The notes under the pieces are model-generated. The model did no database searches, had not been told where the DNA came from, and was given only the letters and a program-made list of their open reading frames with translations. Position numbers and translations under genes: made by a program. Below, one piece after another: positions 3,276-40,203 of a stretch of DNA of 64,000 nt. This DNA comes from Sinohyriopsis cumingii (lineage: Eukaryota > Mollusca > Bivalvia > Unionida > Unionidae), in the NCBI GenBank assembly GCA_028554795.2, contig CM068835.1, positions 60,387,219 through 60,451,218 of the forward strand, given 5' to 3'. Each line of letters starts with the position of its first letter. Position 1 is the first letter of the stretch.

Positions 3276-4369
3276 TCACTTCTTTTTATAGTCGATGACT
3301 TGCGAAGCGTCGATCCAAGAATCAAAACTGGGTGGATATCCTTTCCAACGTACTTTGACTTCTTTGACACGTCGTTTGCCCACTTTACGGGTTCTGCGTT
3401 CGAAAATGCTTTCGATGTCGTACACGTCGTCTTCCTTTTTGGTGACACGTTGTAACTCGGGCAAATAAAACGTTCCTTTGAGCACTTCTCCGTTCATGTC
3501 TTCCAATTTATAGACGGCAGGATGACGGCCATGCACTCGTCCAGTGACACGAAACAATTCGGTGGTCCAGTTAGGTAAGTAACCTTTGTCAAAAGTGCGT
3601 TTGGTTTTGCCAATGCGCACCCAATCTCCTATGGCTAACACTTCACCTTTCTTGGGGACAGCCACCGTCGGGGACCTACCAAACAGGCGATCAGAAACCA
3701 GCACTTCGTTGTCGGGAGTCACCTCTTGCGGGGCACGTCCAATGCTTCGATGGTAAGATTGGTTGTACGCTTGCACCAGATGCGGTAAGATGTCGATGTA
3801 CTTCAGAGTATGGTGATGCGTAAAATATTTCCACATGCGTTCTTTCAAAGTACGTTGAAAACGTTCCACGATGCTGGCTTTGGTTTCGGGATTCTCGGTG
3901 GTAGAAAAATGAATGTCACGTTTCTTTAATTCTTTTTGGAAAGCTTGGTTCAGAAATTCGGTGCTTTTGTCCGTTTGCCATCGAAGAGGGTGACGACCGC
4001 TTTGTTTCAACACTCGTTGCAGGGCTCGCACTAACTCGCTGCTCGATTTGGAAGTCAAGGGTACGACCCAAGCAAAAAACACAAAACAAATATTTGTAGC
4101 CGCGATTGTAGCTGGCCAAATGAGAGACATCGGCTAAATCGGCTTGCCATTGATGATCGATGCCTTCCACTTGGGTGCGACTTCTGGAAAACTTGCGTCG
4201 AATGGGTTTGTGTAAAGTGTAGGTAGCTTGTTCTTGTAACCATCGTTGCACTTGAGGTAAACGGAGACTTTTCAGTCGCATTTTGGCAGCACGATACAAT
4301 TTTTGAACTCCTGCGTAACCTGCAGGATGCGAGGGATCGTAGTAAATGCTGGCTAACACTTTTTCCATT
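3276..4369 (-). pseudogene. Polinton integrase (retroviral type, C-terminal chromodomain), 17-bp deletion
   Basis: The N-terminal part (ATG 4369) has IYYDPSHPAGYAGVQKLYRA and YTLHKPIRRKF, diagnostic of Polinton integrases. WQADLAD carries the first catalytic Asp. The second part carries TDKSTEFLN (second Asp) and SIVERFQRTLKERMW (catalytic Glu region). A C-terminal chromodomain follows, with VRWKGYPPSFDSWID at about 3290-3340. The two parts are in different frames. Compared with copy B, exactly 17 bases are missing near 4080, between the first and second Asp. The enzyme would insert the element and make 6-bp target duplications, but this copy cannot encode a full product. Confidence 0.88.
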
Positions 4370-9582: not shown

Positions 9583-12500
9583 CTATCGATCTTGCCTAGG
9601 GTTCCTTTTTATATACAGACCAATACCGACGTGTCCATACGGTAAGGTGAAATGATTGGGAAGTCGCATTCGCTTCTGGTACACGATTTGATAGACTTTT
9701 TCCAAGGGTCGACTGATGATGTGGTGAGTGGGTAAACGTACAATCTTGTTGGGTTGATAGGTGGTCACTTTAAAGTGTTCATCCTCTCCAGATTGCAAGG
9801 CTTCTTTCAATACCCCAAAGTTGACCACACGACTGGTACAATAATTCAGAGTGAATCCTTTCACTTTACACTTCGTGTGCACTTCTCCTTGTGGGTCCCG
9901 GTATTCGTAGCCGTATTTTTTTGGACCGCCACTGACGAAATTTAGAATCTTGTCGTCGGGATGCTCGTCTGTCCAGGCTCCTAAACGGTCTTCTTCGATG
10001 TCAGGGTGCTGTTGACTCGGGTGATGGATGTAAATGCAACTGTCCGTGTCAAAGTACAGGACACGTTCCCCTAACAGTTCTAAAGCTTCGTACAATTTTA
10101 AGCGAGCATGAGCTGTCACGTAAGCCGCAATGATGACATTTCCAAAAGGGTCGTCTTGTACAAAGTCCAGATCTTCTTCGTAATTGACCAAGATCAAATC
10201 CTCTCGAACGACGTCCACGTGTTTCATGAATTTGGTTTTGTCGTGAATCATCTGAAAGTAGCGGGAAGGTTCTGTCAAATACTCCGTCTTGGGTAAACAC
10301 GGACGTTGTGCCATTTTACCCCACAAGCAATTTAACATAACTTTGGCAAACGATCGCCTGCCTTCGTTTTTCTCGATGTGATCTAAAGTAATGCTTTCTT
10401 GTGCCCAGTATTTCTCATTGAATGTCTTTTGGTCTCCGGGAGTGTGACACCAGGAAGGATAGCCACTGGCTTATTGTTTCAGTTTCAAAAAGGCATCCAC
10501 GTAGTCAGCGAAAATGCCTTTCTGCGTGGGTCAGCCTTGTGGTATTGTTGTGTCTTGGGAAAGTGACAAATTTCGTACACTTCTAACAGTTGATATCTCA
10601 TGTCCAGAGCTTTGAACAATTCTACGCTGACCCAGGTTCCCGTCAAGGCCCGTTCTTCCTGGGTGTGCTGACAAGGCTGATCTTGGTTGCACGTTTCGGC
10701 ACAAGTACGGCACAAAGGAAACATCAGTTTGCCTTGGCAATGGTGAGGTAAGACGGGATGGTACAAATCCTTGGGAGGCAAAACTTTGCACTTGATCAAG
10801 CCTTCGTATTGTCGAATGTTTTTCAGGTTGATGTGTTCCGTGAACAATTGTGGGTGCCCTGCAGGAAAGCGACAATATTTGCATACGTAGGGATAGAGCG
10901 AACACACGTCCAAGTATTTGATTTCTTCTCCTTTCTCTTCGTCGGCTTGGTACAGCAAACAGGTGGTATTGGTCCTTCCTCCGTACAAACTATCCCTTGG
11001 GTTCAGGGGATCCATGAACTGGTAACTTTCCACGAGGCGTTTAAATTCGGGATCAGTTTTCAAACGGTGATCGTATTCGTGTTCCCACATTTCCACCACT
11101 TGGTATCCTTCCTGTTCTAACTTTAGGCGTCACTGACAAGTAGCCTGGTACAAGTGTTCCATGGTTCGTTGTAAAAACTGATTTTTAGTGCCACGGTCAG
11201 GGTAACAGACGGGACATCCGTGAAATAAGCAACCGTTAAACTCGTACACGATCTTGGGGTTTTCTAAGTCGCAGCCATCGACCGAATGCGTTCCAATGGT
11301 CTTTTCGCCCCCTCCGTTGCGGGCATGCTGAATCCATTTGTTTTCCTTGTCGCACAAGTAATGTAACCAGCGTAGGGCTTTGACCGAGTATTGACGTTTG
11401 ACATAGTTGGTCGTTTGAGGACTGATGACAGCCACGGTGTTTTCAGGCATGAATCGTTGCCGGTACACTAAGGAACACGCTTTGGCAATGGTGCAAGCTT
11501 CTTTCAAAGGATCGACCCCTCCGTGTTCCATGAACAGTTCTCGAAATTTTCCACAGCAACGTCGTAAAATGTCCACGTCGGAACGACAATACTTTAACAT
11601 TTCTTCCTGAAAGTCGAAAGGGTCCGAGGCGTGAGCCTGGTACCAAGCGTAGAAAGCTTCTCGTTGTTCGGTACGCATGTTGTCAGGGTCATAATAGTGA
11701 GCCTCAGGTAAATGGGGTAGAACGGCGTGTTGATTGGCTTCCGTATTGAAAAAGTGTGGAAAGTACCCTTTAGCCATGTCTGTCATTCCAAACGTTTTAG
11801 GCATTCGGCTCAAAGGCATGGCCAAATAACTCATCGAATCTTTGAACTGTACTTGTCCCACTTGCATGAAAATGATTTTGGCTCCGTTCAAAGTGACTTT
11901 AGGACACTCGGTGCCTTGTTCCGTATAGTATCTCAAAAGAAACTGTCCATCGTATCCAGAGAAATTGTGAGCCATCACTGTGGCATGACGATGACAATCT
12001 CCGTAACGTTCGATGTCCTCTTGGCTCCACGTCTTGTCGATGGGGTCTAAGACCCATTGTGCAAAATCGGCTAACGTGTTCGGTCCCCGAAAGATTTTTT
12101 CACGCCCTCCGGGAATCTTGCTGCAGTGAGGGCAGTGACTGCAGATAGGTTCTTGAATGCACTTCTCGCACGCTCGATGAGCTACGCAGAAATTAGGAAT
12201 GTGAATACCGGTCTCTTGCATGCATTCGAAATCGAAAAAGATGAAATTGCCTTTCTTCTTGTGTCCATCCTCTTTCTCTGGTGGGGATTGGTATTTTTGC
12301 ACGTAGCATTGGTGTTCCAAGTCCACGATGTGGTGACAAATGTGACATTTTTTCTTTCCTGAACATATGTGTGCCTTGGCATTATTGGTACATATGCCTT
12401 GTCCACACGTAGGGCACAATCTCAGGAGTTGACAAGCACATTTCTGCTGTGAACCTTGCGTCTTCAGATGTTGTTGGTAACAGGTAGGGCTGACAAACGT

Positions 12501-13647
12501 GCGCAGACAAGCAGGGCAGTGCACTGGTTCTTGCCCTTCGCTCAGACAGGGTGGAGAGGCCAAACATCTTGAGCATTTCGAGCCACAATGCTTGTGTTGC
12601 TCTCGATTATTATAACCATGGTCACATTTCTCACAATAATAAACATATCCCAGGAATCCTGTAATACTGGTAATGGTATCGAAATGGTCATCGTGATGAT
12701 AGACATGAATGTATTTTCCATCCTTAAAGTCTTTCCCTCGAAACAACAGAGGCCCGCGCATTTCTTGAGGGTGCACTTTCAAGGTGTACCGTGGAACTAG
12801 GACATCTTGCAATGTTTGCATTTCAGGAATGCCACAGGGTGTCTTTGGACAGGCCGGCTTGTTGTAACAGGTGTTCTGCTTCACTTCGTTGTTTGGCTCG
12901 GTCGGATCGTTGAATAGTTTTCCAGGCTCTTTTCCATTCTGCCGTGTCATTCTTGTTAGCATAGGTTCGTCCCACCACGATGGCACGGGCTAAACACATC
13001 TGGTCTTGAGGGTTGTGAATTCGGACGAGACTTGTTTTGGTGCTGCGAAGGTCGTTCACCAATAACATCTTTGTGCGGCCAGTCCCTTGAGGAGGAGAGA
13101 CGTGGGTCATGTCCAATGTGGCTTTTCCATCGGTGATGTCAAACTGGTCATTGGATTGTTGCACGTGTTGAATCTTGTCCATGACTTTGGAAGCGGTCAG
13201 TTCTGCAGGGCTGCTAAACTCGATCCAAACAGGGGATTTCAAACCGTCGTGTTGTATGGAAAGTCTCAAGCGATCGTCTTCTTTGGGTTGACATTGTCGC
13301 TTGAGTGTGGTGAGTAAAGAATCCCACACCCCGGTGATGAACCTTTCTGCTTTCTCTAACGGTACTTCGGACTTGAAATCTTTGAACTTCACCGTGTATT
13401 TGTAAGCCGTGGTTCTAAATTTTCTAGAGGAGCGCTTTTCTGTCTCTCGAATGTCATGGTACTTTTCAGGGTTAACTAAGGGTGGTGAACTTTGTTTAGA
13501 GGGTTTGGATTCTGGTTCACTCATGTCTTCTTCAAAATCACTGGCATGAATTTGTGCCAAGACTTCAGCTCTTGTACGAGGCGATAGATCACGTTTCTGC
13601 CTCTTACTTTGTTCTTCTTTCTTCTCAAATGAATTGGATCGTTTCAT
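9583..13647 (-). pseudogene. Protein-primed family B DNA polymerase (Polinton PolB), four breaks
   Basis: About 1,350 codons. The order is: a basic N-terminus with the Polinton-type domain (FRTTAYKYTVKFKDFK; LARAIVVGRTYAN), a Cys/His-rich zinc-binding region (about 12,300-12,640), the exonuclease domain (FFDFECMQET Exo I, AHNFSGYDGQFLL Exo II, YCRSDVDIL Exo III), then polymerase motifs (DVCSLYP motif A, NCLWGK in motif B, YFDTDS motif C). Breaks: a 2-bp deletion near 12,840, an in-frame TGA at 11,130-11,132, a one-base shift near 10,510 and a TAA at 10,471-10,473. The enzyme would replicate the element from a terminal protein. It is head-to-head with the zinc-knuckle gene. Confidence 0.95.
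9606..9615 (-). promoter_or_regulatory. TATA box of the BIR gene inside the PolB 3' end
   Basis: The minus strand reads TATATAAAAA about 55-65 bases before the BIR-gene ATG at 9550 and within the last codons of PolB. Confidence 0.5.
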
Positions 13648-13781: not shown

Positions 13782-14228
13782 ATGGAAGAGACTAGCCAAA
13801 TCGAACGTTTCATCAGAGCTTTGCGAGGGGTCATTAGAAAATTCTCTTCAGACCAGCCGACGGACTACTCTCCTTCTTTTCAAGATAAAAGTCAAGATAC
13901 TTGCTATATCTGTCAGAAGAAAGGGCATTGGTCTTCAGAGTGTCCAGTCCGTCAAAAAAGAAAAAAAGGGGCTAGAAAAGACAAAAGTCAAGATACCTGT
14001 TATTATTGTCAAGAAAAAGGACATTGGTCTCCAGATTGCCCAAAAAAGAAACAAGAGGAGTCAGAAGAAGAGAGGGATTCTTCAGAAGAAGAGAGGGATA
14101 ATTCAGAGGAAGAAAGCAGCCAGGTAAAGAAAAAGAAACAGGAGAAGAAAAGAAGAAGGGAAGAAAGTGAGAAGGAAGAGGAGGAAAAGACTGTGACGGT
14201 GAAGAAATTTAAAAAACAGAGAGACTAA
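13782..14228 (+). CDS. Zinc-knuckle (two CCHC) acidic-basic protein, 148 aa
   Basis: The ATG at 13,782 follows the TATA box at 13,719 and an initiator-like CATTTCACTCTC. Residues 1-35 form a helical head (MEETSQIERFIRALRGVIRK). Two knuckles follow: CYICQKKGHWSSEC and CYYCQEKGHWSPDC (C-x2-C-x4-H-x4-C). The tail alternates Glu/Ser and Lys tracts. The knuckle suggests single-stranded nucleic-acid binding. The gene is transcribed toward the element end, away from PolB. Decayed copies occur in copy B and in both palindrome arms, so it is a stable part of this Polinton lineage. A polyadenylation signal AATAAA lies at about 14,306, followed by a conserved GTAAGTGTCT. Confidence 0.75.
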   Translation: MEETSQIERFIRALRGVIRKFSSDQPTDYSPSFQDKSQDTCYICQKKGHWSSECPVRQKRKKGARKDKSQDTCYYCQEKGHWSPDCPKKKQEESEEERDSSEEERDNSEEESSQVKKKKQEKKRRREESEKEEEEKTVTVKKFKKQRD

Positions 14229-14470
14229 ACAGTGAGAAGAAGTGAATGTACTTTTTAAAGTGCTCTGTTGTGAATTGTGAATTGGATTGTAACTATTGAT
14301 AAAAGAATAAATTAGGTATAAAAAGGTAAGTGTCTGAGTTTTGATTTTAAATAAGAAGCTACAATCACGCACTCATATACACGTACTACAGGGGTAAAAC
14401 GTTTTCTTTTTTTTTTTTCTTTTTTTTTTGAGTTATTGGCAATTGAAAATCTACCTCTTTTCGAGAGAAG
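14229..14470. other. Intergenic: zinc-knuckle 3' end and T-rich tract
   Basis: The stretch holds an AATAAA at about 14,306 on the plus strand, a GT-rich element, then a T-rich/A-rich tract near 14,405-14,430. No gene is visible. The minus-strand purine-rich element downstream of the histone-like stem-loop lies at about 14,450-14,466. Confidence 0.5.
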
Positions 14471-14496
14471 TGGGTGGCCCTGAAAAGGGCCTTTGG
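14450..14496 (-). terminator. Histone-type 3' stem-loop ending the minus-strand basic gene
   Basis: On the minus strand the order is CCAAA, then GGCCCTTTTCAGGGCC (14,476-14,491; 6-bp stem, TTTC loop), then ACCCAC (14,470-14,475), then the purine-rich TCGAAAAGAGG about 10 bases on. This matches the replication-dependent histone mRNA 3' end: SLBP-binding stem-loop with flanking AAA and ACCCA, and a U7-like histone downstream element. It lies about 25 bases after the stop at 14,517. Confidence 0.85.
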
Positions 14497-14516
14497 TTTT
14501 TGGTGTAGGGGTGAGT

Positions 14517-15042
14517 TTAAGCAATCAACTTTAACTGCCTTAAGCCTTTGCCACGGCCGAGGCCTACTTCTGGACTGCGTACTGTTGATGATGATGATGA
14601 TGATGATTTGGTTGAAATCACTAAGGGTGGTACGGTAGGCTTAGTCACAGGGTTGACGTGTTTAGTTCGGGAAGGTCGTATTCTCTTTGGTCATAATAAA
14701 GAAGTCTGATACATTTGTTTCAGACTTCTTAACTCCGCTAAAATGTCTAACAGTACCGTGACCGTTTGATTTTCACCCTCTTGTTTCTTTGCTGCTGCTT
14801 CTTCTTCTTCTTGTTTTTTTTTCTTACCTCTTCTTCTTGCTGTAAAAGAAAAGCTTGTTCCACTTCCTTTTGTCGTTGTATAAATTCTCCAATTCTTCTT
14901 TCTGTCTCTGTCTAAAATTCTCCACGTGTGGTAATGAAGGTGGCGAAGGTTCCGGAACAAATTCTTGCGAGGTAAGAAAATCCACAAAATCCCAATTCAC
15001 CTCTTCTGAAAGTAAGTCTGGGTTCCCTTGGGTAGTCTCCAC
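14517..15042 (-). pseudogene. Basic coiled-coil protein with GRGKG tail (histone-like gene pair, minus member)
   Basis: The start is uncertain: the frame opens after a TAA at about 15,075 and the first Met-like codon is a GTG at 15,042. Visible parts are NWDFVDFL, a Gln/Glu/Lys-rich coil, a basic run, the well-conserved QTVTVLLDILAELRSLKQMY, and a basic Ser-rich C-terminus with GLGRGKGLRQ just before the stop at 14,517-14,519. Breaks: a frameshift near 14,830 and a TGA at 14,691 where copy B has CGA. Copy B has the fuller version. The GRGKG recalls the N-terminus of histone H4, but that may be chance. With the basic tail and histone-type 3' end it is a candidate DNA-packaging protein. Function not established. 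Confidence 0.6.
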
Positions 15043-15089
15043 TGCTGGTGCATCCCAATTAATCGTTTTCTGAGTTTACGTCATGTTGA

Positions 15090-15300
15090 ATAACTGTCGC
15101 ATGGATTGACTGCGCACAGGCGCTAGCAAATCTATATAGACCACGTGACGTCACAGACTGTTCTCTTCGGATTGGATGCGAGCTGACTGAATTTTGTAAC
15201 GCGTGTTTGGATTGGTCAATGAACTCAATCCGTTTCAATCCTTCCTCTACCTATCAATAAGCGCAGTTCACTGCATTGATTTACCTATTCTCGTCGCCTC
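15090..15300. promoter_or_regulatory. Divergent promoter of the histone-like gene pair
   Basis: The 210-bp gap between the divergent genes holds a minus-strand TATA box (TCTATATAGA, 15,131-15,140), a CACGTGACGTCAC element (15,142-15,154; E-box plus CRE) and inverted CCAAT boxes (ATTGG at 15,171 and 15,211). Copy B keeps the TATA boxes and CCAATC elements at 26,615-26,871. The GCTAGCG.CTGTGCGCA.TCAATC region around the minus-strand start site is also conserved in both copies. Confidence 0.65.
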
Positions 15301-15303
15301 AGC

Positions 15304-15534
15304 ATGTGGACTGACGTTGAATCTTCCACCCTTGTGTCAACAATGATGTTCAGGACGGACATACCGATGTATGTCCGATCCGAATGGACAGTTGTCCATA
15401 GGACTGCCAGCAACCTATGGATACGTAGGATTTACGTGGAGAGGCAAGGATGCCTCAAAAGAGTCCTGATTTACGGTCCTACAGTGAGACGAAGCTTAAG
15501 GACAAGAAGAAGTCACAGATGCCCTTTATGTTAA
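15304..15534 (+). CDS. Small Arg-rich basic protein, 76 aa (histone-like gene pair, plus member)
   Basis: The frame starts MWTDVESSTLVSTMMFRTDI and ends RTRRSHRCPLC. Copy B has a 77-residue orthologue with the same start (MWT.VESS-type), a central IYVER.GCLKRV segment and a basic C-terminus ending PLC, in the opposite orientation and at the same place next to the element end. Conservation of start, length and stop across two diverged copies supports a real gene. Net charge is strongly positive. I do not recognise the family. The stop codon is followed after 19 bases by a histone-type stem-loop. Confidence 0.7.
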   Translation: MWTDVESSTLVSTMMFRTDIPMYVRSEWTVVHRTASNLWIRRIYVERQGCLKRVLIYGPTVRRSLRTRRSHRCPLC

Positions 15535-15550
15535 GGGCATATATAAACCC

Positions 15551-15594
15551 AAAGGCCCTTTTCAGGGCCACCCACATTTCTCGAAAAGAGATAG
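15551..15594 (+). terminator. Histone-type 3' stem-loop ending the 76-aa gene
   Basis: The sequence CCCAAA is followed by GGCCCTTTTCAGGGCC (15,554-15,569), ACCCA (15,570-15,574) and the purine-rich CGAAAAGAGATAG (15,582-15,594). Stem length, UUUC loop, flanks and spacing fit the metazoan histone mRNA 3' processing signal. Confidence 0.88.
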
Positions 15595-15639
15595 ACTTTC
15601 AATTGCCTACCCCTTTTTATATTTTTTTTATTTTTTTAA

Positions 15640-15921
15640 AATAGGGTCCCGACCCTGTTCAATTTTCTCTAGTCCCTAAACAGTCCCACGATCAATTCCC
15701 CATGTTCAATTTCCCTTGTCGCTAGAGTGACCCAACAATTTTCCCCATCTTAATTTCCCTTGTCGCTAAACAGACCCACGATTTATTCTCATGTTAATTT
15801 CCTTTGTCGCTAGAGTGACCCATGATTTTTCCCCATGTTAAATTTCCATTGTCACTAGAGTGACCCAGGGGGGTCTGTAATGCTAATTCCCATTGTCGCT
15901 AGGGTGCCCCACTTCACTACT
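15640..15921. repeat. Terminal repeat region of copy A with tandem subrepeats
   Basis: About seven diverged units of the type CTAGAGTGACCCA...CCCCATGTTAAATTTCC..TTGTCG form the end of the element, finishing in GCCCCACTTCACTACT. The same unit, as GGGACAATGG-AATTTAACATGG, builds the TIRs of the palindromic element. Confidence 0.75.
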
Positions 15922-22237: not shown

Positions 22238-22933
22238 AATAGTGGGGGGGGGGGGCACTTTACGGACAATAGGAAAAAACGTTACAGACCCCCCTTGGGG
22301 CTGTATACGGACATGACTATTCAGATCACCTTGGGGCTGTATACGGACAATGGAAATTTAACATAAGGAATATTGGGCAGGGAAAGTTGGGTTTAATAGG
22401 AATGGAACAGGTGAGGTGACGTCACGGTACAGGACAAAGGTAACAATGTTGCAAGGGTCTGACCTGAATACGCGCTACTATAGGTAAAAATGGTTATGAT
22501 ACATACATAGATTGATGAACATCAATCTTTCACACTTAAAATATAAAATCGACTAAATGTTTTGTAGGCAAGAGAGAAAATGATCTTGGAAGCGAACATA
22601 AAATATAAAATCGACTAAAAAATATTTAGGCAACAAAGTAAATCTTTTCGCGACAGTAGTGTGGGAAAAAAAGGGGGAAAAACAAACCCAAAATCTACTA
22701 TCCACACAAACGTACGCGAACGTATACAAACCCAAAGTTTACTATCCACACAACGTACGCGCACACATACAAACCCCAAACCTACTATCCGCACACGGGA
22801 AGAGTAAAAAACAAACCCAAAATCTACTATCCACATAAACGTACGCGAACGCATAAAAGTACACACTCTACTATCCACACAGAACTGAAGGGAAGAGAGC
22901 CACAATATCTACTCCACACAAACGTACGCGAAT

Positions 22934-22979
<46 letters not shown>

Positions 22980-23090
22980 CAGTAAAGTAGTAAGTGTTTA
23001 TAGTCACACCACTCTACATTCGCACAATTTGGCAGCTTGAATAGTGTCTCTTTTATAGAGGTCTGGCTAGCCTTGAGAAGGGCTGTTTTT
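22238..23090. mobile_element. Polinton end fragment C
   Basis: A G-run is followed by subrepeats of GGGGCTGTATACGGACAATGG, then TGACGTCACGGTAC, GACCTGAATACGCGCTACT, and CCACACAAACGTACGCGAACG arrays ending in (AC)n at 22,934-22,976. The same blocks in the same order occur in the palindrome arms (TIR, GACCTGAATACGCGCTACTG, CGTACGCGAAC arrays). This is therefore a third Polinton terminus of the same lineage, separated from any body genes. Confidence 0.7.
23051..23086 (-). terminator. Degenerate histone-type stem-loop in fragment C
   Basis: On the minus strand AAAACAGCCCTTCTCAAGGCT (core 23,069-23,084) is followed by AGCCAGACC and then ATAAAAGAGAC. The spacing of stem, flank and purine element matches the intact stem-loops of copy A, with substitutions in the stem and in ACCCA. 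Confidence 0.4.
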
Positions 23091-23225
23091 AGAACTTCAG
23101 ATGCACCTCTCAATGTCGGCACCTCTCAGGTCTAGCCCCATACACGAATCGTCTGCTCCAGTCCTGTTCCCAGTTGATGCGTGTGATTGGGAGCGCAGAA
23201 GGAGGTTGATTTGCTTCACTATCCC

Positions 23226-23687
23226 TCAAACGGGTTGTTGTTGTTGTTCCCACGGTCTTCTGAGCCACACTCGGGGATGAACTGGCCTTCTTGCCTCCTG
23301 TGGACGCTGTACTGGTTGTTGTGCTGATACTGGTTGTCGTGCTGCTAATGGTTTTCGATGCGTACTCACCTCAGGCTTCACCTCATACAACGGTCTCAGT
23401 ATGAGGTTAGGCAGGATCCTTTCCTTCTTCTCCTCCTTCTTTTTCATCTCCTCCTCCTCTTCTATTCTGGCACTTTCCACTGTGGCCTCCGTAACCAGGT
23501 CATCTAACAGGCGCCTGGCATATCCCAGGTGCATCTGGAGTTCCAGAAGCTTGGTGAGTCTGCTCAAGCTGTTGGGTAGCCAGATTGATTGAATGATTGG
23601 CCTAAATTTGGTCGTCTTGTACAATTTAGGAGAATAAACTAATTTTGTTTTAGTAAGATGGACAGGTGTACCTTTGATGACAACCAT
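23226..23687 (-). CDS. Unidentified coiled-coil protein next to fragment C (possibly spliced)
   Basis: A 153-residue frame with a helical centre (LGYARRLLDDLVTEATVESA), a Glu/Lys-rich coil and a Pro/Gln/Arg-rich end. A splice-donor-like GAGGTGAGTACG follows the coil at about 23,360 and an acceptor-like CTCCAG precedes LGYARR, so only part may be an exon. It lies where copies A and B have the 76-aa gene and is read toward the element end, with a degenerate histone-type stem-loop 140 bases downstream. I do not recognise the family. Confidence 0.3.
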   Translation of the reverse strand: MVVIKGTPVHLTKTKLVYSPKLYKTTKFRPIIQSIWLPNSLSRLTKLLELQMHLGYARRLLDDLVTEATVESARIEEEEEMKKKEEKKERILPNLILRPLYEVKPEVSTHRKPLAARQPVSAQQPVQRPQEARRPVHPRVWLRRPWEQQQQPV

Positions 23688-26130: not shown

Positions 26131-26317
26131 AGGGTGGTGGGTAAGTTCAGCTAGTTCATAAACTATACCAATAAAACAGCGCTTGGCGGGACGGGACATG
26201 TAACTTCTTTATAGACAGGGACATAGATTTGCAACACAGACATAGATTGATGAACATCAGTCTCTCACACAAACAACTATATAAGCGACCAACAAAAAGT
26301 TTAGACAAGAAAGCAAT

Positions 26318-26360
26318 TCTTTTCGAGGCATATGAGTAGCCCTGAAAAGGGCCTTTGGTA
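26318..26360 (-). terminator. Histone-type 3' stem-loop of the 77-aa gene
   Basis: On the minus strand CCAAA precedes GGCCCTTTTCAGGGCT (26,338-26,353), then ACTCA replaces ACCCA, and CTCGAAAAGAA follows. It lies about 27 bases after the stop at 26,381. One stem base and the flank have drifted. Confidence 0.75.
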
Positions 26361-26380: not shown

Positions 26381-26614
26381 CTAACATAGAGGGTATTGCA
26401 TTGGTCTTCTTCTCTTCCTCAAACTTCTTTTGACTTCTGGACCGTAGACGATGACTCTCTTCAGACAGCCTTTTCTCTCCACATAGATTGTTCTTTTCCT
26501 AAAGCTCGTATCGGTGATCCGGACGATTGTCCATAATGATCTGACGTACATGGGTAAGTCCGTACGGAACAGCATCGACGATACGAGGGTAGATGATGCA
26601 ACGCTAGTCCACAT
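26381..26614 (-). CDS. Small Arg-rich basic protein, 77 aa (copy B)
   Basis: Orthologue of the 15,304-15,534 protein: MWTSVASSTLVSSMLFRTDL at the start, TIYVERKGCLKRVIVYGP in the middle and a basic end YPLC. The frame is intact although most of copy B is decayed. A TATA box (ACTATAAATAACC, 26,652-26,666) and a GTTCACTTCATTCATTT initiator-like stretch, both matching copy A, lie upstream. The gene points toward the element end. Function unknown. Confidence 0.7.
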   Translation of the reverse strand: MWTSVASSTLVSSMLFRTDLPMYVRSLWTIVRITDTSFRKRTIYVERKGCLKRVIVYGPEVKRSLRKRRRPMQYPLC

Positions 26615-26871
26615 CTTGTGACGAGAACAGGTGAAATGAATGAAGTGAACAGGGTTATTTATAGTGGAAGAGCGGATCGAAACTAATTTAGTTTTTTCAC
26701 CAATCCCAATAAACGTTACAAAATTCAGTCACAGTACGGAATCTGTCTTCCAATCCGAAGAGAGATACATGTAATATCACATTCCTTATATAGGTGTGCT
26801 AGCGTCTGTGCGCAATCAATCAATGTGACAGTTTTCAAACAAACAAGACGACGCATTAGGGTGCACCGGCT
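26615..26871. promoter_or_regulatory. Divergent promoter of the copy B histone-like pair
   Basis: It holds TATA boxes at each side (26,652-26,666 minus; TTATATAGG near 26,787 plus) and two CCAATC elements (about 26,700 and 26,750). GTGCTAGCGTCTGTGCGCA near 26,796 is shared with copy A. Confidence 0.6.
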
Positions 26872-27423
26872 GTGAAGACGAGAATCGATGGTACAGCAGC
26901 GGCTACCAAAGTCAACACAATCCCACTACCAGAAGAGGCCGATTTTAATTGGGATTTAGTCGATTTTCTTTCTTCTTCGCAAGAATTTGCTCCGGTACCA
27001 GTACCTTCGCCACCTTCTCCACACGCTGAAGATTTTAAACAGAGACAGAAAGAAGAATATGAGAAATTTTTACAGCAGCAGAAAGAAGCAGAACAAGCTT
27101 TTCTCCTTCAACAGCCAAAAGCAAGAAGAAGAGGCAAGAAGAAGGAAACGACAGAAAGAAGAAGCAACAGAGAAGAAACAAGTCTAAGAGAGAAGGAGGA
27201 CAGTGAAGGTCAAACAGTGACGGTACTCTTAGACATTTTAGCAGAGTTAAGGAGTCTAAAACAAATGTATCAGACCTCTTTATTACGACCCAAGAGGAAA
27301 AGACCTTCCCGTGCCAAACAACCCAACCCTGTTACTACACCCGAGATACCCGTCCTAGTGATTTCTACCAAATCATCGACAGGAACAAGTCCACAAGTAG
27401 ACATAATAATAAAAAACACCCAA
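26872..27423 (+). CDS. Basic coiled-coil protein (copy B), stop codon displaced
   Basis: The frame runs from about 26,872 (a GTG; true start unclear, no in-frame ATG) through NWDLVDFLSSSQEFAPVPVP, a Gln/Glu/Lys coil, QTVTVLLDILAELRSLKQMY and a basic Pro-rich segment (RPKRKRPSRAKQPNPV). The frame continues to 27,516, but that part reads through the degenerate histone-type stem-loop at 27,424-27,446, so the original stop was probably lost. Copy A ends before its stem-loop. Predicted coil plus basic tail suggests nucleic-acid packaging; this is inference. Confidence 0.6.
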
Positions 27424-27466
27424 TTGTCCTTTTTAGGGATACCCACTTCTATCGAAAAGAGATATA
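27424..27466 (+). terminator. Degenerate histone-type stem-loop of the copy B coiled-coil gene
   Basis: TTGTCCTTTTTAGGGATACCCA keeps the loop, the ACCCA flank and the downstream ATCGAAAAGAGATA element of copy A, but the stem has mutated on both sides. Confidence 0.55.
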
Positions 27467-30617: not shown

Positions 30618-31629
30618 AGTAGTTAAGTGGGATACCCTAGGGACAATGGGACTTAGCATTAAAAAGACCCCTGGGACACTCTAGGGACAATGGAAATTTA
30701 ACATGGAGAAAAATCGTGGGTCACTCTAGGGACAATGGGAATTTAACATAGAGTTTGGGACTGTCTAGGGACAATGGGAATTTAACATGGGAATAGAGTT
30801 TGGACTTGTCTAGGGACAAGGGGAATTGAACATGGGGGAATAAAGTGTGGGTCTATCTAGGGACTAGGGAAATTTAACATATGGAAATTGAACATGGTGG
30901 GTCTGTATAGCGTCAAGGGGAATTGAACATGGTGGGATTGTCTAGGGACAATGATGGTAGAGGGTCAAACACAACAGAGACAGAAACATACATACACTAG
31001 TACAAGCGTGAGATTTATATATAAAGCATTACCAAGACCTGAAATCTTGCTGGGGTGTTCAAAAATTTGCATAATTGTAATGATGCTATAAATAGCTATA
31101 ATCAAGGAAATGCTCAACGACAAAATGGATGTGACTAAAAGTAACGCTAAAATGACGAAATTGTCCCAGAATTTAAAGGAAAATAAACATATCCCTGAAA
31201 ATTAAGTTACAATGGTTTAGACTAAAATGGATAAAATTAGTAACTACTTACAATATCAACTTCTGTGACGATCGTGGATAAATACCTATGTATCGATAAT
31301 CAGCTGAAATTCCTACGAAATCCCACTATCTATTTATAGCTCCAACTTGTGGGTTTTTCCTTTGGAAAATCCCACTATTCTTTTATAGCCTCAGCCTGAG
31401 TGACGTTCCTGTTTATGAATTCTAGTATATATGTATAGCTACAAAATGTGGAAATCCCCAAGTCGATATTTATAGTCTCAAAATTTTCAGCGTCAGTGAC
31501 GTCACTGTACTGAACACTAGGGGATAAATGGCAACAGTGTTGCAAGTGGCTGACCTGAATACGCGCTACTGTAGGTAGGTAGGTAGAGTGTATCTGATAG
31601 GGATAAAGTGAGTTTTATAGGGACAAACA

Positions 31630-31977
31630 GAGACCAATACACACACACACACACAACATACGCGCGCAGACTCAAACACACACACTCACACACACACACA
31701 CACACACACACAGAGGGAAGAGGAAAACACAAACCCCAAAATATACTATCCACACTCGGGAGGAAGAAAAAAAAACAACCAAATATACGATCTAAACAAC
31801 GTACGCGAACACACACACACACACACACACACACAACATACGCGCGCAGACTCACACACATACACACACACACACACACACACAGAGGGAAGAGGAAAAA
31901 ACAAACCCCAAATATACTATCCACACTCGGGAGGAAGAAAAAAAACAACCAAATATACGATCTACACAACGTACGCG

Positions 31978-32018
<41 letters not shown>

Positions 32019-32157
32019 CATACGCGCGCAGACTCACACACACACACACACACACACAGAGGGAAGAGGAAAAAACAAACCCCAAATATACTATCCACAC
32101 TCGGGAGGAAGAAAAAAAACAACCAAATATACGATCTACACAACGTACGCGAACACA

Positions 32158-32207
<50 letters not shown>

Positions 32208-32508
32208 TGGAAGAGGAAAAAACAAACCCCAAATATACTATCAACACAGAAGGGAGATAATACAAACCCCAAATAAACTATCCACACAAACGTACGCGAA
32301 CGCATACAAACCCCAAATATACTATCAACACAGAAGGAGATAATACAAACCCCAAATAAACTATCCACACAAACGTACGCGAACGCATACAAACCCAAAA
32401 TATACTATCCACACAACGTCGCTAACGCATACAAACTCCAAATATGCTATCCACACTCGGGAGGAAGAAGAAAAAACAACCAAATATACGATCTACACAA
32501 CGTACGCG

Positions 32509-32545
<37 letters not shown>

Positions 32546-32848
32546 GGAAGAGGAAAAAACAAACCCCAAATATACTATCAACACAGAAGGGAGATAATAC
32601 AAACCCCAAATAAACTATCCACACAAACGTACGCGAACGCATACAAACCCCAAATACACTATCAACACAGAAGGGAGATAATACAAACCCCAAATAAACT
32701 ATCCACACAAACGTACGCGAACGCATACAAACCCCAAATATACTATCCACACGACGTCGCTAACGCATACAAACCGCAAATATACTATCCACACTCGGGA
32801 GGAAGAAGAAGAAAAACAACCAAATATGCGATCTACACAACGTACGCG

Positions 32849-32906
<58 letters not shown>

Positions 32907-32960
32907 ACAGAGGGAAGAAGAAGAAAACCATTATACACTATCCACACACAGTGAAGAAAT
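31630..32960. repeat. Subterminal (AC)n and CGTACGCGAAC arrays, left arm
   Basis: Repeats of CTATCCACACAACGTACGCGAA and ACAAACCCCAAATATA alternate with long (AC)n runs. Long frames across this block are low-complexity artefacts, not genes. Confidence 0.9.
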
Positions 32961-33518
32961 AACCCTTTATATATACTATCAACAGAGAATGAAGAAAATA
33001 ACCCATTATATTCCATCAACACAGAGTGAAGAAGAAAAAGTTTTTTGAAAGCACCTAAACCCTCACCTGCAATGACCAACTCTGCCAAACACCTACACCC
33101 CACCCACCCCCACTCCCAACACTACAAAACCCATTTAACCCGTTATTTTATGGCATCAGTGTGTGATTTAGGAAACATCAAGACACAAAATGATGGACGA
33201 ATAGACTGACTATTGTTTACGGACTTGCATGCCTAAAGAGCGTGCGTGAAGGAAAACATCCTTCCATTTCAATTCTAACTAAAACATGATCCAGAGGGAT
33301 AGAGAGAGGTGAAAGAGCACAATTTCATAAAGTGTGAGTAAAAACAAAACACGCCATCCTTATTATACAATGTCAAGACCAAGAGACACTTACGTTTTCT
33401 TTCTGGTCTATTCTCTTTTAGAAGGTAGTATGAAATTTCACATCAGGGCCAACGCATCGGCTCACATTGTCAATTTTTCCATTTCCATGTTTTTACTGGC
33501 ACAAGTTCTTCATCATCT

Positions 33519-33866
33519 TCAATTTCTTCTTCTTCTGAATCCCTCTTCTCTGTTTCGTCTTGTTTTTGTTTCTTCTCTTTTCTCGTAGGGCACTCTGAAT
33601 TCCAGTGTCCTTTCTCCTGACAACGATATTAGGTATCTTGACTTTTGTCTCTCTTTCTTAGACGAAGCAGGTATTCTGGAGACAAATACCCATTTACCTT
33701 TGCAGATATAGCAAACTTCATTAGCACTTACACACTTTCGCATGACTCTCATCAAATCAACGACCAAAAGAGTAAGTTTTGTTGCCACTTTCGCATGTGA
33801 ATTATGCTTTCGTATGACTTTTAGCAAATATTTGACCAGCAGGTCGATCTGTGCTGACTCTTCCAT
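33519..33866 (-). pseudogene. Zinc-knuckle gene remnant, left arm
   Basis: The frame begins MEESAQIDLLVKYLLKVIRK and reaches a broken first knuckle (CYICKGKW). The second knuckle (RCQEKGHWNSEC) is in another frame just downstream. It has the same orientation relative to the element end as in copies A and B. Confidence 0.75.
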
Positions 33867-33974
33867 CTTCTTGATCGTTTGAGAGCGGAATGAATACTCT
33901 GACGCTAAGATACTCTCCTTCTATACATGGACCCGCTGCGTATGAAACCTAGTCAAATGTAATTTTGCAGTAAG

Positions 33975-34340
33975 ATGAAACGATTTCATTGAGGAAGTAA
34001 AAAACAATGATGTACCGTATCGCCTCACACAAAACCTGAAGTTTTAGTTCAAATCGGTGTCAGCGATTTCGAAGACGACATAACTGAGCTTTAATCAATG
34101 CTCTCCAATTATGACACAAAACCACGAGTCCTGATTCACGCCAAAAGAATTTTGTTCGGTCCATAAAAAATAGTATCACATCTGAGAAAAGCAAAAACGA
34201 ACTTCCAGAAAACTGAGAACGACGGCTTACACCTACAACGTAAATGTGTGAGTTCAAGTAGTGCGTAAAACTTAGTCAAATTAGATTTTTATAGTCAAGA
34301 CGAAACGATCTCTTTTCGAACAAGAAAGCAGACACCAAGC
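33975..34340 (+). pseudogene. PolB N-terminal remnant, left arm
   Basis: ATGAAACGATTTC (as in the PolB start MKR) is followed by VSDFEDDITE and a TTAYTYN-like segment matching copies A and B, with many stops. A second MKRS-like fragment follows near 34,300. No other part of PolB is present. Confidence 0.65.
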
Positions 34341-35265
34341 GACAATGGCGATCCGTGTCACATAACACTTTTCCAAATGTATATTATCAGAGGTTTGTTC
34401 TAGCGATCTGCACGGTTAAATTAAATGTTGATGTATTTTGCAATAAGACGGACACAATTTCCATGGGATCGCCCATGGTACGATTGTTCGTGCATTAGTT
34501 TAACTTTTAAAAATATTTTTTTATATAAATCGCCTATAGGATAGACCCAGTAAAGCGTGGCCATACTTAAGTCAATTCGAAGCGAACGCGGTAAGAAAAT
34601 AAGTATAGCCAATGAAATGGCTTACAACGGGTGATGCATTGTTTTGTTCTAGGGCTGTGTGGCATAATAATCCCTATGTTCTTGCGTTGTTACCATTACA
34701 GTGCAGACAGACTGAAATGTGAACTTACAAGCCCTCTTTGTGTGTGTTGTACCATTTCCTCTTACCACATCAAAATACTGAGCGTCACAGTATTGGTTCG
34801 CGTTTTCAAGCTGACCATTTTTTTATATCTCACTTAAACATTTCGACATAAACACTCACATCGGTAGAGTCAGAACAGACGTGTTACAGTATTGAGGGGC
34901 ATGTTATCTTTTCTTTTTCAAACTAATAAATTTGGGGTTTGTATGAAGTAAAGAACCGAAAGTACAGTGAAACTCAAGGATGATGACCCAATCTGTCTGT
35001 CTATTGATGCGTGTATTTACTTAAGAAGAAATATGACCTCTAAAACACAAAGAGATACGGCAAGCATGATTAGATTAAACACAACAACGTTTTCCTTCAC
35101 GCCCGTGTAATTTAGAGTTTCAATCGTCTTTGAAGACAAACTTGGTTTCCTTTTGTAGGGCTTGAAATAATAAAAAAACTGAAAAATCTTAAGCACTTTG
35201 CTATAGATAATTTCATCAACAGACCAAACAACATAAATACCGTTACAACAATAGAAAGCCTTAAA

Positions 35266-35591
35266 CTGCCCTGCTATGTTGACGTCATATAGCTTGTATG
35301 TGCATTTTCCCTTTTCCACTCTATATTAGTGCTTAGATTTGTTCCAAAAAAAAAAAAAAAGAAAAAAGAAACGAAATAATTTTGAAGAAAAAGAAACAAC
35401 TGAATTTTGAATTCAGGTTTCTCTCTGTTTATAATTTTTTTCAAGTTGACGGTGCATGACAGAGTACATTCTCCTACCTTTCCAAAGTGAGAGGCATTTC
35501 TTCACATGTTATTGCCTTTGTTAAATTCGGTTTCATTGGTTAGTTATCGTTAATCTTTAATTTTTTTCATGCATTTCTTTTTGATAGAAGA
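35266..35591. other. Unique central spacer of the palindrome
   Basis: A 326-bp non-palindromic segment with an A-run at about 35,344-35,358 and A/T-rich sequence; no gene is visible. It would form the loop if the arms paired. Confidence 0.85.
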
Positions 35592-36516
35592 TTTAAGGCT
35601 TTCTATTGTTGTAACGGTATTTATGTTGTTTGGTCTGTTGATGAAATTATCTATAGCAAAGTGCTTAAGATTTTTCAGTTTTTTTATTATTTCAAGCCCT
35701 ACAAAAGGAAACCAAGTTTGTCTTCAAAGACGATTGAAACTCTAAATTACACGGGCGTGAAGGAAAACATCGTTGTGTTTAATCTAATCATGCTTGCCGT
35801 ATCTCTTTGTGTTTCAGAGGTCATATTTCTTCTTAAGTAAATACACGCATCAATAGACAGACAGATTGGGTCATCATCCTTGAGTTTCACTGTACTTTCG
35901 GTTCTTTACTTCATACAAACCCCAAATTTATTAGTTTGAAAAAGAAAAGATAACATGCCCCTCAATACTGTAACACGTCTGTTCTGACTCTACCGATGTG
36001 AGTGTTTATGTCGTTATGTTTAAGTGAGATATAAAAAAATGGTCAGCTTGAAAACGCGAACCAATACTGTGACGCTCAGTATTTTGATGTGGTAAGAGGA
36101 AATGGTACAACACACACAAAGAGGGCTTGTACGTTCACATTTCAGTCTGTCTGCACTGTAATGGTAACAACGCAAGAACATAGGGATTATTATGCCACAC
36201 AGCCCTAGAACAAAACAATGCATCACCCGTTGTAAGCCATTTCATTGGCTATACTTATTTTCTTACCGCGTTCGCTTCGAATTGACTTAAGTATGGCCAC
36301 GCTTTACTGGGTCTATCCTATAGGCGATTTATATAAAAAAATATTTTTAAAAGTTAAACTAATGCACGAACAATCGTACCATGGGCGACCCCATGGAAAT
36401 TGTGTCCGTCTTATTGCAAAATACATCAACATTTAATTTAACCGTGCAGATCGCTAGAACAAACCTCTGATAATATACATTTGGAAAAGTGTTATGTGAC
36501 ACGGATCGCCATTGTC

Positions 36517-36882
36517 GCTTGGTGTCTGCTTTCTTGTTCGAAAAGAGATCGTTTCGTCTTGACTATAAAAATCTAATTTGACTAAGTTTTACGCACTACT
36601 TGAACTCACACATTTACGTTGTAGGTGTAAGCCGTCGTTCTCAGTTTTCTGGAAGTTCGTTTTTGCTTTTCTCAGATGTGATACTATTTTTTATGGACCG
36701 AACAAAATTCTTTTGGCGTGAATCAGGACTCGTGGTTTTGTGTCATAATTGGAGAGCATTGATTAAAGCTCAGTTATGTCGTCTTCGAAATCGCTGACAC
36801 CGATTTGAACTAAAACTTCAGGTTTTGTGTGAGGCGATACGGTACATCATTGCTTTTTACTTCCTCAATGAAATCGTTTCAT
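36517..36882 (-). pseudogene. PolB N-terminal remnant, right arm
   Basis: Mirror image of 33,975-34,340, with the same stops. Confidence 0.65.
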
Positions 36883-36990
36883 CTTATTGCAAAATTACAT
36901 TTGACTAGGTTTCATACGCAGCGGGTCCATGTATAGAAGGAGAGTATCTTAGCGTCAGAGTATTCATTCCGCTCTCAAACGATCAAGAAG

Positions 36991-37338
36991 ATGGAAGAGT
37001 CAGCACAGATCGACCTGCTGGTCAAATATTTGCTAAAAGTCATACGAAAGCATAATTCACATGCGAAAGTGGCAACAAAACTTACTCTTTTGGTCGTTGA
37101 TTTGATGAGAGTCATACGAAAGTGTGTAAGTGCTAATGAAGTTTGCTATATCTGCAAAGGTAAATGGGTATTTGTCTCCAGAATACCTGCTTCGTCTAAG
37201 AAAGAGAGACAAAAGTCAAGATACCTAATATCGTTGTCAGGAGAAAGGACACTGGAATTCAGAGTGCCCTACGAGAAAAGAGAAGAAACAAAAACAAGAC
37301 GAAACAGAGAAGAGGGATTCAGAAGAAGAAGAAATTGA
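36991..37338 (+). pseudogene. Zinc-knuckle gene remnant, right arm
   Basis: Mirror image of 33,519-33,866, differing by one residue (Met to Ile) in the readable part. Confidence 0.75.
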
Positions 37339-37929
37339 AGATGATGAAGAACTTGTGCCAGTAAAAACATGGAAATGGAAAAATTGACAATGTGAGCCGA
37401 TGCGTTGGCCCTGATGTGAAATTTCATACTACCTTCTAAAAGAGAATAGACCAGAAAGAAAACGTAAGTGTCTCTTGGTCTTGACATTGTATAATAAGGA
37501 TGGCGTGTTTTGTTTTTACTCACACTTTATGAAATTGTGCTCTTTCACCTCTCTCTATCCCTCTGGATCATGTTTTAGTTAGAATTGAAATGGAAGGATG
37601 TTTTCCTTCACGCACGCTCTTTAGGCATGCAAGTCCGTAAACAATAGTCAGTCTATTCGTCCATCATTTTGTGTCTTGATGTTTCCTAAATCACACACTG
37701 ATGCCATAAAATAACGGGTTAAATGGGTTTTGTAGTGTTGGGAGTGGGGGTGGGTGGGGTGTAGGTGTTTGGCAGAGTTGGTCATTGCAGGTGAGGGTTT
37801 AGGTGCTTTCAAAAAACTTTTTCTTCTTCACTCTGTGTTGATGGAATATAATGGGTTATTTTCTTCACTCTCTGTTGATAGTATATATAAAGGGTTATTT
37901 CTTCACTGTGTGTTGATAGTGTATAATGG

Positions 37930-37950
37930 TTTTCTTCTTCTTCCCTCTGT

Positions 37951-37986
<36 letters not shown>

Positions 37987-38289
37987 CGCGTACGTTGTGT
38001 AGATCGCATATTTGGTTGTTTTTCTTCTTCTTCCTCCCGAGTGTGGATAGTATATTTGCGGTTTGTATGCGTTAGCGACGTTGTGTGGATAGTATATTTG
38101 GGGTTTGTATGCGTTCGCGTACGTTTGTGTGGATAGTTTATTTGGGGTTTGTATTATCTCCCTTCTGTGTTGATAGTGTATTTGGGGTTTGTATGCGTTC
38201 GCGTACGTTTGTGTGGATAGTTTATTTGGGGTTTGTATTATCTCCCTTCTGTGTTGATAGTATATTTGGGGTTTGTTTTTTCCTCTTCC

Positions 38290-38336
<47 letters not shown>

Positions 38337-38637
38337 CGCGTACGTTGTGTAGATCGTATATTTGGTTGTTTTTTCTTCTTCCTCCCGAGTGTGGATAGCA
38401 TATTTGGAGTTTGTATGCGTTAGCGACGTTGTGTGGATAGTATATTTTGGGTTTGTATGCGTTCGCGTACGTTTGTGTGGATAGTTTATTTGGGGTTTGT
38501 ATTATCTCCTTCTGTGTTGATAGTATATTTGGGGTTTGTATGCGTTCGCGTACGTTTGTGTGGATAGTTTATTTGGGGTTTGTATTATCTCCCTTCTGTG
38601 TTGATAGTATATTTGGGGTTTGTTTTTTCCTCTTCCA

Positions 38638-38683
<46 letters not shown>

Positions 38684-38821
38684 TGTGTTCGCGTACGTTG
38701 TGTAGATCGTATATTTGGTTGTTTTTTTTTTCCTCCCGAGTGTGGATAGTATATTTGGGGTTTGTTCTTTCCTCTTCCCTCTGTGTGTGTGTGTGTGTGT
38801 GTGTGAGTCTGCGCGCGTATG

Positions 38822-38856
<35 letters not shown>

Positions 38857-39190
38857 CGCGTACGTTGTGTAGATCGTATATTTGGTTGTTTTTTTTCTTC
38901 CTCCCGAGTGTGGATAGTATATTTGGGGTTTGTTTTTTCCTCTTCCCTCTGTGTGTGTGTATGTGTGTGTGTGTGAGTCTGCGCGCGTATGTTGTGTGTG
39001 TGTGTGTGTGTGTGTTCGCGTACGTTGTGTAGATCGTATATTTGGTTGTTTTTTTTCTTCCTCCCGAGTGTGGATAGTATATTTTGGGGTTTGTTTTTTC
39101 CTCTTCCCTCTGTGTGTGTGTGTGTGTGTGTGAGTGTGTGTGTGTGAGTCTGCGCGCGTATGTTGTGTGTGTGTGTGTGTGTATTGGTCT
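37930..39190. repeat. Subterminal (GT)n and CGCGTACG arrays, right arm
   Basis: Complement of the left-arm arrays, with different repeat lengths. Confidence 0.9.
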
Positions 39191-40203
39191 CTGTTTGTCC
39201 CTATAAAACTCACTTTATCCCTATCAGATACACTCTACCTACCTACCTACAGTAGCGCGTATTCAGGTCAGCCACTTGCAACACTGTTGCCATTTATCCC
39301 CTAGTGTTCAGTACAGTGACGTCACTGACGCTGGAAATTTTGAGACTATAAATATCGACTTGGGGATTTCCACATTTTGTAGCTATACATATATACTAGA
39401 ATTCATAAACAGGAACGTCACTCAGGCTGAGGCTATAAAAGGATAGTGGGATTTTCCAAAGGAAAAACCCACAAGTTGGAGCTATAAATAGATAGTGGGA
39501 TTTCATAGGAATTTCAGCTGATTATCGATACATAGGTATTTATCCACGATCGTCACAGAAGTTGATATTGTAAGTAGTTACTAATTTTATCCATTTTAGT
39601 CTAAACCATTGTAACTTAATTTTCAGGGATATGTTTATTTTCCTTTAAATTCTGGGACAATTTCGTCATTTTAGCGTTACTTTTAGTCACATCCATTTTG
39701 TCGTTGAGCATTTCCTTGATTATAGCTATTTATAGCATCATTACAATTATGCAAATTTTTGAACACCCCAGCAAGATTTCAGGTCTTGGTAATGCTTTAT
39801 ATATAAATCTCACGCTTGTACTAGTGTATGTATGTTTCTGTCTCTGTTGTGTTTGACCCTCTACCATCATTGTCCCTAGACAATCCCACCATGTTCAATT
39901 CCCCTTGACGCTATACAGACCCACCATGTTCAATTTCCATATGTTAAATTTCCCTAGTCCCTAGATAGACCCACACTTTATTCCCCCATGTTCAATTCCC
40001 CTTGTCCCTAGACAAGTCCAAACTCTATTCCCATGTTAAATTCCCATTGTCCCTAGACAGTCCCAAACTCTATGTTAAATTCCCATTGTCCCTAGAGTGA
40101 CCCACGATTTTTCTCCATGTTAAATTTCCATTGTCCCTAGAGTGTCCCAGGGGTCTTTTTAATGCTAAGTCCCATTGTCCCTAGGGTATCCCACTTAACT
40201 ACT

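Follow-up and report, generated by a model that had tools for sequence, protein, structure and literature searches.

Gene content of the element

The window (the whole 64 kb stretch of Sinohyriopsis cumingii DNA analysed here) holds two copies, A and B, and a fragment, C, of a mobile element (Table 1). We assign this element to the Polintons because it has a family B DNA polymerase (PolB) of the putatively protein-primed type, an integrase core (below the cut-off) with a chromodomain, a weak protease, AG..CT terminal repeats and, in a derivative, a 6-bp target duplication. The adenain-like protease lies just left of the window and is weak by sequence (Peptidase_C5, E 0.018; S273R protease, E 1.7e-4). 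A packaging ATPase candidate is represented by a weak Pox_A32 match (E 0.036); the window ORFs scanned gave no Pfam match to a jelly-roll capsid, and no capsid gene was identified among them.

Table 1. Features of the Polinton copies in the 64 kb window
Feature	Positions	Strand	Evidence or remarks
px gene, copy A, 76 aa, pI about 11, open	15304..15534	+	66% identical to copy B
px gene, copy B, 77 aa, open	26381..26614	-	Comparison with copy A
cc gene, about 200 aa in relatives, predicted helical, broken in copy A	14517..15084	-	tblastn pieces 72-92% to P0017
cc gene remains, copy B	26836..27405	+	tblastn 56-71% to P0017, P0012, P0004
Region between divergent px and cc, presumed shared promoter	15085..15303		162/216 aligned bases identical to copy B; promoter role presumed
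Histone-type stem-loop (15554-15569), ACCCA flank and purine element, copy A px	15549..15594	+	Rfam RF00032, 42.5 bits, E 3.2e-9
Histone-type stem-loop (14491-14476), ACCCA flank and purine element, copy A cc	14451..14496	-	Rfam RF00032, 38.9 bits, E 7.3e-8
Histone-type stem-loop and purine element, copy B px	26314..26358	-	32.5 bits, slightly below cut-off of 34
Degenerate stem, purine element intact, copy B cc	27417..27462	+	Sequence inspection and spacing table
Degenerate stem-loop and purine element, downstream of fragment C	23049..23092	-	Sequence inspection
Fragment C ORF with k2-like stretch	23226..23687	-	65% over 34 aa to k2 of L053, at 23463-23564
DNA polymerase B (organellar and viral type), two ORFs	10485..12986	-	PF03175, 1.7e-16 and 1.6e-16; 60.7 bits twice, cut-off 25.8
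Integrase core and chromodomain, same ORF	3276..4130	-	PF00385, 29.9 bits (cut-off 25.1); PF00665, 24.5 bits (cut-off 32.6), rve E 3.4e-5
Zinc-knuckle gene, convergent to cc	13782..14228	+	Pfam zf-CCHC, 2.5e-14
Terminal inverted repeat, copy A right end	15545..15921		Inner edge at px stem-loop, outer end ..CACTACT; 78.7% over 277 nt to k3-side end of L053

Two divergent genes, px and cc, occupy the right end of copy A. Across 22 copies the mean identities of px codon positions 1, 2 and 3 are 0.88, 0.945 and 0.70, and this order (2 > 1 > 3) resembles that of a coding sequence under purifying selection. In copy A, cc has an in-frame stop near its start and its pieces lie in different frames; its remains in copy B also have an in-frame stop close to the start, together with an altered end. 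The first-pass annotation had read two genes here: this stands for px, which is open in both copies, but not for cc, which is broken in copy A. A public protein set contains three relatives of px (on contigs of at most 1.5 kb) and 19 of cc (on contigs of at most 2.3 kb). Neither protein gave anything credible in PHROGs or Pfam, with no Pfam match above cut-off, and px gave nothing credible in the PDB. The cc protein is predicted to be mainly one long helix (68-154 in the structure model of a relative, with disordered ends and a pTM of 0.23); the px model was unusable (pLDDT 46).

At the opposite kind of element end, read in a related copy (L053), stand three tandem genes, k1, k2 and k3, the last of which has five relatives in the public protein set. 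The left part of copy A, outside the window (L052), carries a piece of a k1 gene that matches the k1 of another copy at 92% over 61 aa. Judged by its sequence, fragment C is a k2-like remnant.

ATTGG (CCAAT-box-like) motifs are found by eye at matching spots of the px-cc intergenic regions of copy A (window 15172-15225) and copy B (26680-26770); CCAAT-box-like motifs occur in many histone promoters. A short stretch around TTCCTTCACGTCCGCGC recurs upstream of the k genes in four loci (L004, L005, L015, L017) and also in the left part of copy A (L052, 4795-4830), accompanied in some loci by a TATA-like box (by eye); it is perhaps a common promoter of the end genes.

Inside copy B lies a 9.6 kb near-perfect giant palindrome (window 30618-40203), whose longest arms are 97-99% complementary. 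It has the ends AGTAGT..ACTACT and a 6-bp target duplication, CACGTC, on both sides (read by eye), and each arm carries a zinc-knuckle stretch resembling the gene beside cc. These features suggest a palindromic, non-autonomous derivative of this Polinton family. CA/TG-rich arrays with a repeated CGTACGCGAA core are present near fragment C (22824-22986) and in the palindrome (31637-32600 and 37915-39170).

Histone-type signals behind the end genes

Both px and cc of copy A end in a histone-type stem-loop and purine element, with 19 nt (px, stop end 15534) and 25 nt (cc, stop end 14517) between stop and stem. The first-pass annotation had claimed such ends 19-25 bases past the stops, and the coordinates and Rfam scores (42.5 and 38.9 bits) agree with it; a covariance search of the kind that it had proposed yields these two matches in the window at the curated gathering cut-off of Rfam Histone3 (RF00032; 34 bits). 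They are the only gathering-level matches in the 64 kb window to any of 4227 Rfam families. The zinc-knuckle gene of copy A has an AATAAA about 78 nt past its stop and no stem-loop match.

Behind px of copy B the feature was found where it had been placed (26,338-26,353), although its score of 32.5 bits falls below the cut-off of 34. The site described as degenerate behind cc of copy B (27,424-27,446) is just that: at 27425-27440 (+) the stem is broken, and the purine element is kept at unchanged spacing. The site suspected downstream of fragment C (23,069-23,084, minus strand) does contain a stem-loop, with one mispair, but it belongs to another gene type, k2.

In the window, exactly three sites fit a structural scan that requires stem, loop and purine element, as compared to a mean of 0.54 in 100 order-2 shuffles; since 2 of the 100 shuffles reach three sites in this loose scan, the window taken by itself stands out only moderately. 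For a plain 16-mer with 3 mismatches allowed, 3 of 100 shuffles attain 3 matches. It is the covariance-model scores and the genome-wide counts, rather than the window scan, that give the case its strength. Chance likeness to the histone stem-loop was ruled out by the Rfam scores together with the genome counts (13,559 versus 0, as detailed below).

In L053 the stem-loop after k1 is degenerate (by eye); all six pairs are present in the stem-loops of k2 and k3. Intact hairpins are therefore found on four gene types near element ends (px, cc, k2 and k3), with a degenerate one on a fifth (k1). The first-pass annotation had described two histone-ended genes next to one terminus; the signals are there, but at least four intact types exist, at both kinds of element end. 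Its characterization of the products as two small basic, possibly DNA-packaging, proteins is too narrow, given these gene types and pI values of 6.2 for k2 and 7.9 for two cc relatives, alongside about 11 for px and 9.3 for k1 and k3. The px protein may bind DNA.

The px and k3 hairpins open the terminal inverted repeat, and the cc and k2 hairpins are internal. The outermost gene at each end thus reads outward into the repeat and gets its 3' end from it. The match of L053 to the terminal repeat of copy A starts at the stem-loop, with further pieces reaching the element end, and the terminal ACTACT of copy A is common to two other loci, L005 and L027. These two loci lie 25 kb apart on contig C11; a reading in which they delimit a single copy was rejected, since the bases flanking them are different and their repeats only ~75% alike. 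No k-type hairpin within 4 mismatches was found in L052 (6 kb) or in window 44001-52000, around the far end of copy B, which means that both window copies have lost their left-end signals or have them farther out. Two ORFs of L052 (107-1573 and 2821-3825) resemble by eye the reverse transcriptase and zinc-knuckle partner of a non-LTR element, which may have cut off the left end of copy A.

Comparison with host histone genes

The host histone repeat unit that we read (L051) contains H4, H2B, H2A, H1 (an H1-like ORF) and H3, with hairpins scoring 35.0-39.4 bits; the two copy A scores lie in or above the range of these five genes. The host purine elements in this unit are CTAGAAAAGA (H4, H2B, H3, H1) and CCCGAAAAGG (H2A), and GAAAAGA is present in four of the five genes. 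Those of the element are CTCGAAAAGA and close variants, with CTAGAAAAGA itself after k2 in 4/5 k2-type sites tabulated (fragment C is the exception). Because histone purine elements are U7 sites by known biology, the purine elements of the Polinton should be U7 sites as well. From stem end to AAAAG the host genes have 14 nt (H2B, H3) or 15 nt (H2A, H1), and H4 has two AAAAG, at 3 and 14 nt. The 14-nt distance recurs at 80 of 84 exact 16-mer hairpins in the fetched element loci (leaving out L017, which overlaps L053) and at all 20 such hairpins, of the H2B type, in host H4-centred loci.

The exact 21-mer hairpin of the element is absent from L051, and the hairpin flanks differ there. Capture from a nearby histone gene was rejected on the basis of these flanks and of the 30 best-match loci described below, which contain no core histone. 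This bears out the earlier view that the signals are histone-type 3' ends of the Polinton family itself and not a chance capture. As far as their sequences tell, px and cc work like histone genes at the 3' end but are not histone genes.

Genome-wide abundance and carriers of the hairpin

The exact 21-mer hairpin GGCCCTTTTCAGGGCCACCCA occurs 13,559 times in the 2.9 Gb host assembly (6651 + 6908 by strand), compared to 0 occurrences of the reversed control, and AAAAGA lies 5-15 nt past the hairpin at 13,073 of these sites. The spacing is identical in 98 of 100 listed sites with AAAAGA (count by eye). Eight divergent pairs 1061-1090 bp apart, like cc and px, are seen by eye among 100 exact-21-mer sites listed.

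Among the best 30 of 75 scored Rfam matches, taken as 3 kb loci, 18 contain px and cc and 12 have other sequence, of the k-gene type; k2 was found in 11 of these 12 non-px loci, leaving out L017, which overlaps L053, the source of k2 and k3. In a further 20 exact-hairpin places along contig C1, taken from the first 66 exact-21-mer sites, the stop lies 15-44 nt ahead of the stem; 2 of these places are k ends, and the other 18 are cc ends, all with matches to px and to the zinc-knuckle gene. Chosen by exact hairpin, the C1 sample tells what bears the hairpin, not how often the genes lack one. No core histone was found in the best 30 of 75 Rfam-match loci or in the 20 sampled C1 loci, and all 50 hairpin loci classified carry genes of this Polinton element. 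The first-pass annotation had held that absence of the stem-loop from other Polintons of the family, together with polyadenylated transcripts, would count against its reading; the stem-loop is present in element loci genome-wide. The cc frame is open over at least 185 aa in 12 of the 18 sampled cc copies. A non-autonomous derivative was ruled out as carrier of the hairpin, PolB of the element lying further inside in 10/10 copies sampled from the C1 places (93-97% in the main match).

Conservation, covariation and poly(A) signals

Signals were also found in px loci selected by protein alone, regardless of the hairpin. A search with the copy B px protein gave 18,108 first-look candidates, of which 150 were scored and the 20 best, excluding the window copies, retained. 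A hairpin with at most 6 mismatches in 26 is present in 16 of them; three of the remaining four lack it, and in one it is partly deleted with the purine element kept. Some of these loci are old copies, since 8 of the 20 have a stop before residue 76. Together with the two window copies they give mean column identities of 0.80 for the stem-loop, 0.78 for the purine element, 0.75 for CCAAA and 0.64 for ACCCA, as compared to 0.70 for third codon positions, 0.68 for the spacer, 0.58 just beyond and 0.51 for the terminal repeat, values that are not independent because the copies are related. The ACCCA columns are thus not above background in this test.

Support from covariation is modest. In k2-type stems an A-U pair replaces G-C at the first position, with both sides changed in 5 of 30 distinct rows, a set that includes 5 host histones and related copies. 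In these rows two pairs have changes on both sides versus 1.2 in shuffles (reached by 135/500), and cells with both sides changed number 6 in total versus 2.5 in shuffles (reached by 3/500). As for poly(A) signals, none of 20 px copies has AATAAA within 300 nt (0/20). Poly(A) use may occur at cc, where 9/18 copies have AATAAA within this distance.

Proposed mechanism and alternatives

The observation of histone-type ends on Polinton genes is confirmed and is larger than first stated; the mechanism that it suggests is likely. The signals themselves, their geometry and agreement with those of the host, their location at the ends of genes, their genome-wide abundance and their occurrence in copies chosen regardless of them make us largely confident that the outermost genes of the Polinton (px and cc; k1, k2 and k3) end in functional histone-type 3' signals and so would yield SLBP/U7-processed, non-polyadenylated mRNAs, mainly in S phase. 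In the known pathway SLBP binds the histone hairpin, and SLBP and the U7 snRNP recruit cleavage factors including CPSF73; histone messages are produced during S phase, at the end of which their half-life falls (both as given in the part of PMC5706932 consulted). By analogy, host SLBP would bind the hairpin of the px, cc and k mRNAs and the host U7 snRNP the GAAAAGA element further downstream, the U7 5' end being expected to pair with element TCGAAAAGA and with host histone CTAGAAAAGA. Cleavage of the pre-mRNA between hairpin and GAAAAGA would leave hairpin-ended, non-polyadenylated mRNAs, which would accumulate and be translated mainly in S phase. Such S-phase coupling of element genes would follow from known histone-mRNA biology. 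Its purpose might be to have the end-gene products made when the element's own DNA can be replicated, and the element polymerase would presumably profit from the nucleotide supply of S phase.

The hairpin might instead be a DNA-level part of the terminal repeats, such as a replication start or a terminal-protein or integrase site, with its histone likeness secondary. The px and k3 motifs do sit at the inner edge of the terminal inverted repeat and are common to both kinds of end, and part of the conservation of these two hairpins could stem from such a role, because they lie in the terminal repeats. We regard this explanation as very unlikely, in that the cc and k2 hairpins are internal, outside the repeats, placed after a stop codon and in the sense of the gene; the k2 stem is altered on both sides and its spacer is different, yet the purine element keeps the same spacing; and neither the loop of the histone type nor the 14-nt spacing nor the GAAAAGA of the host would be expected from a DNA-level role. 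An alternative to which we give slightly less credence still is that a fragment of one host histone 3' end was captured once and has hitch-hiked without function, the copies being alike only through recent amplification. Many sampled copies indeed look young (12/18 cc frames open, as above), so that sameness alone proves little. Yet four to five gene types bear the signal shortly past the stop; px bases differ by 30% between copies A and B (69/231), while 33 of the 38 px-signal bases are kept; among 20 B-like px copies, 8 of them with internal stops, the similarity of hairpin and purine element exceeds that of third codon positions; and the host unit examined (L051) has other flanks.

More weight, if still well short of an even chance, goes to the view that the signals work but serve export, stability or escape from poly(A)-dependent control and not S-phase timing. 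SLBP-bound hairpins also govern translation and stability, according to the portion of PMC5706932 consulted, and nothing direct speaks against this view, though timing and stability are linked in the known pathway. We favor functional histone-type ends that would couple the end genes to S phase.

Occurrence elsewhere

Two relatives from the public protein set continue beyond the usual end as read-through, with tails that match a translation of hairpin and purine element: P0019 (cc type) agrees at 12/14 residues and P0002 (px type) at 9/14, as compared to 7 and 6 for the best six-frame windows outside the element signals of the 64 kb window. We consider the P0019 match telling and the P0002 match suggestive; read back from the residues, both relatives imply slightly degenerate stems. 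IMG/VR contains no match to the exact or a looser hairpin pattern and no relatives by PolB or cc; relatives of cc were not found in prokaryote genomes, nor relatives of PolB in phages. With the hairpin patterns absent from IMG/VR, it is the protein relatives that speak for spread beyond this host.

Significance and comparison with known systems

To our knowledge, histone mRNAs are regarded as almost the only mRNAs with histone-type 3' ends, and we know of no earlier mobile element or DNA virus that uses SLBP/U7 processing for its own genes; if the mechanism holds, this would be the first known to us, as far as the literature searched extends. In that literature, mostly without subscription journals, we found no description of histone stem-loops on Polintons, an absence that is weak evidence. 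Non-histone genes in a family of virus-like elements would then end in histone-type signals as a rule, with thousands of instances in one genome. The finding leads directly to a testable hypothesis on the timing of Polinton expression, and thousands of naturally occurring hairpin and purine-element variants become available for study. A wider proposal, which we advance tentatively as possible but somewhat less than probable, is that the whole Polinton lineage runs an S-phase regulon, with up to five genes at both ends switched via the host histone mRNA machinery, whose transcripts could compete with histone pre-mRNA. We estimate roughly 570 host histone hairpins (114 H4 matches x five genes) versus about 13,500 perfect element hairpins; if processed as proposed, element transcripts might, by competition for SLBP and U7, upset the supply of histones in the host.

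The Rfam Histone3 label has been attached to viral sequence before, in a coronavirus (PMC7786107, in the part consulted), but that match scores 14.7 bits, far below the cut-off of 34, and lies within a coding region, so it is not comparable. The element shares with Polintons/Mavericks the family B DNA polymerase, an integrase core (below its cut-off) with chromodomain, a weak adenain-like protease, the AG..CT terminal repeats and, in the derivative, the 6-bp duplication; it differs in having end genes with histone-type mRNA ends. Mavericks are among the elements present in all the mollusc genomes of PMC10294476 (in the part consulted), and a term look-up in two papers on Polinton-type elements (PMC8097293 and PMC11071308) returned neither histone nor stem-loop. 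With the metazoan replication-dependent histone 3' end (RF00032; SLBP, U7 snRNP) the element's signals share hairpin sequence, loop, purine element, spacing and score range, whereas their carriers here are genes of a mobile element that do not encode histones and are scattered through the genome.
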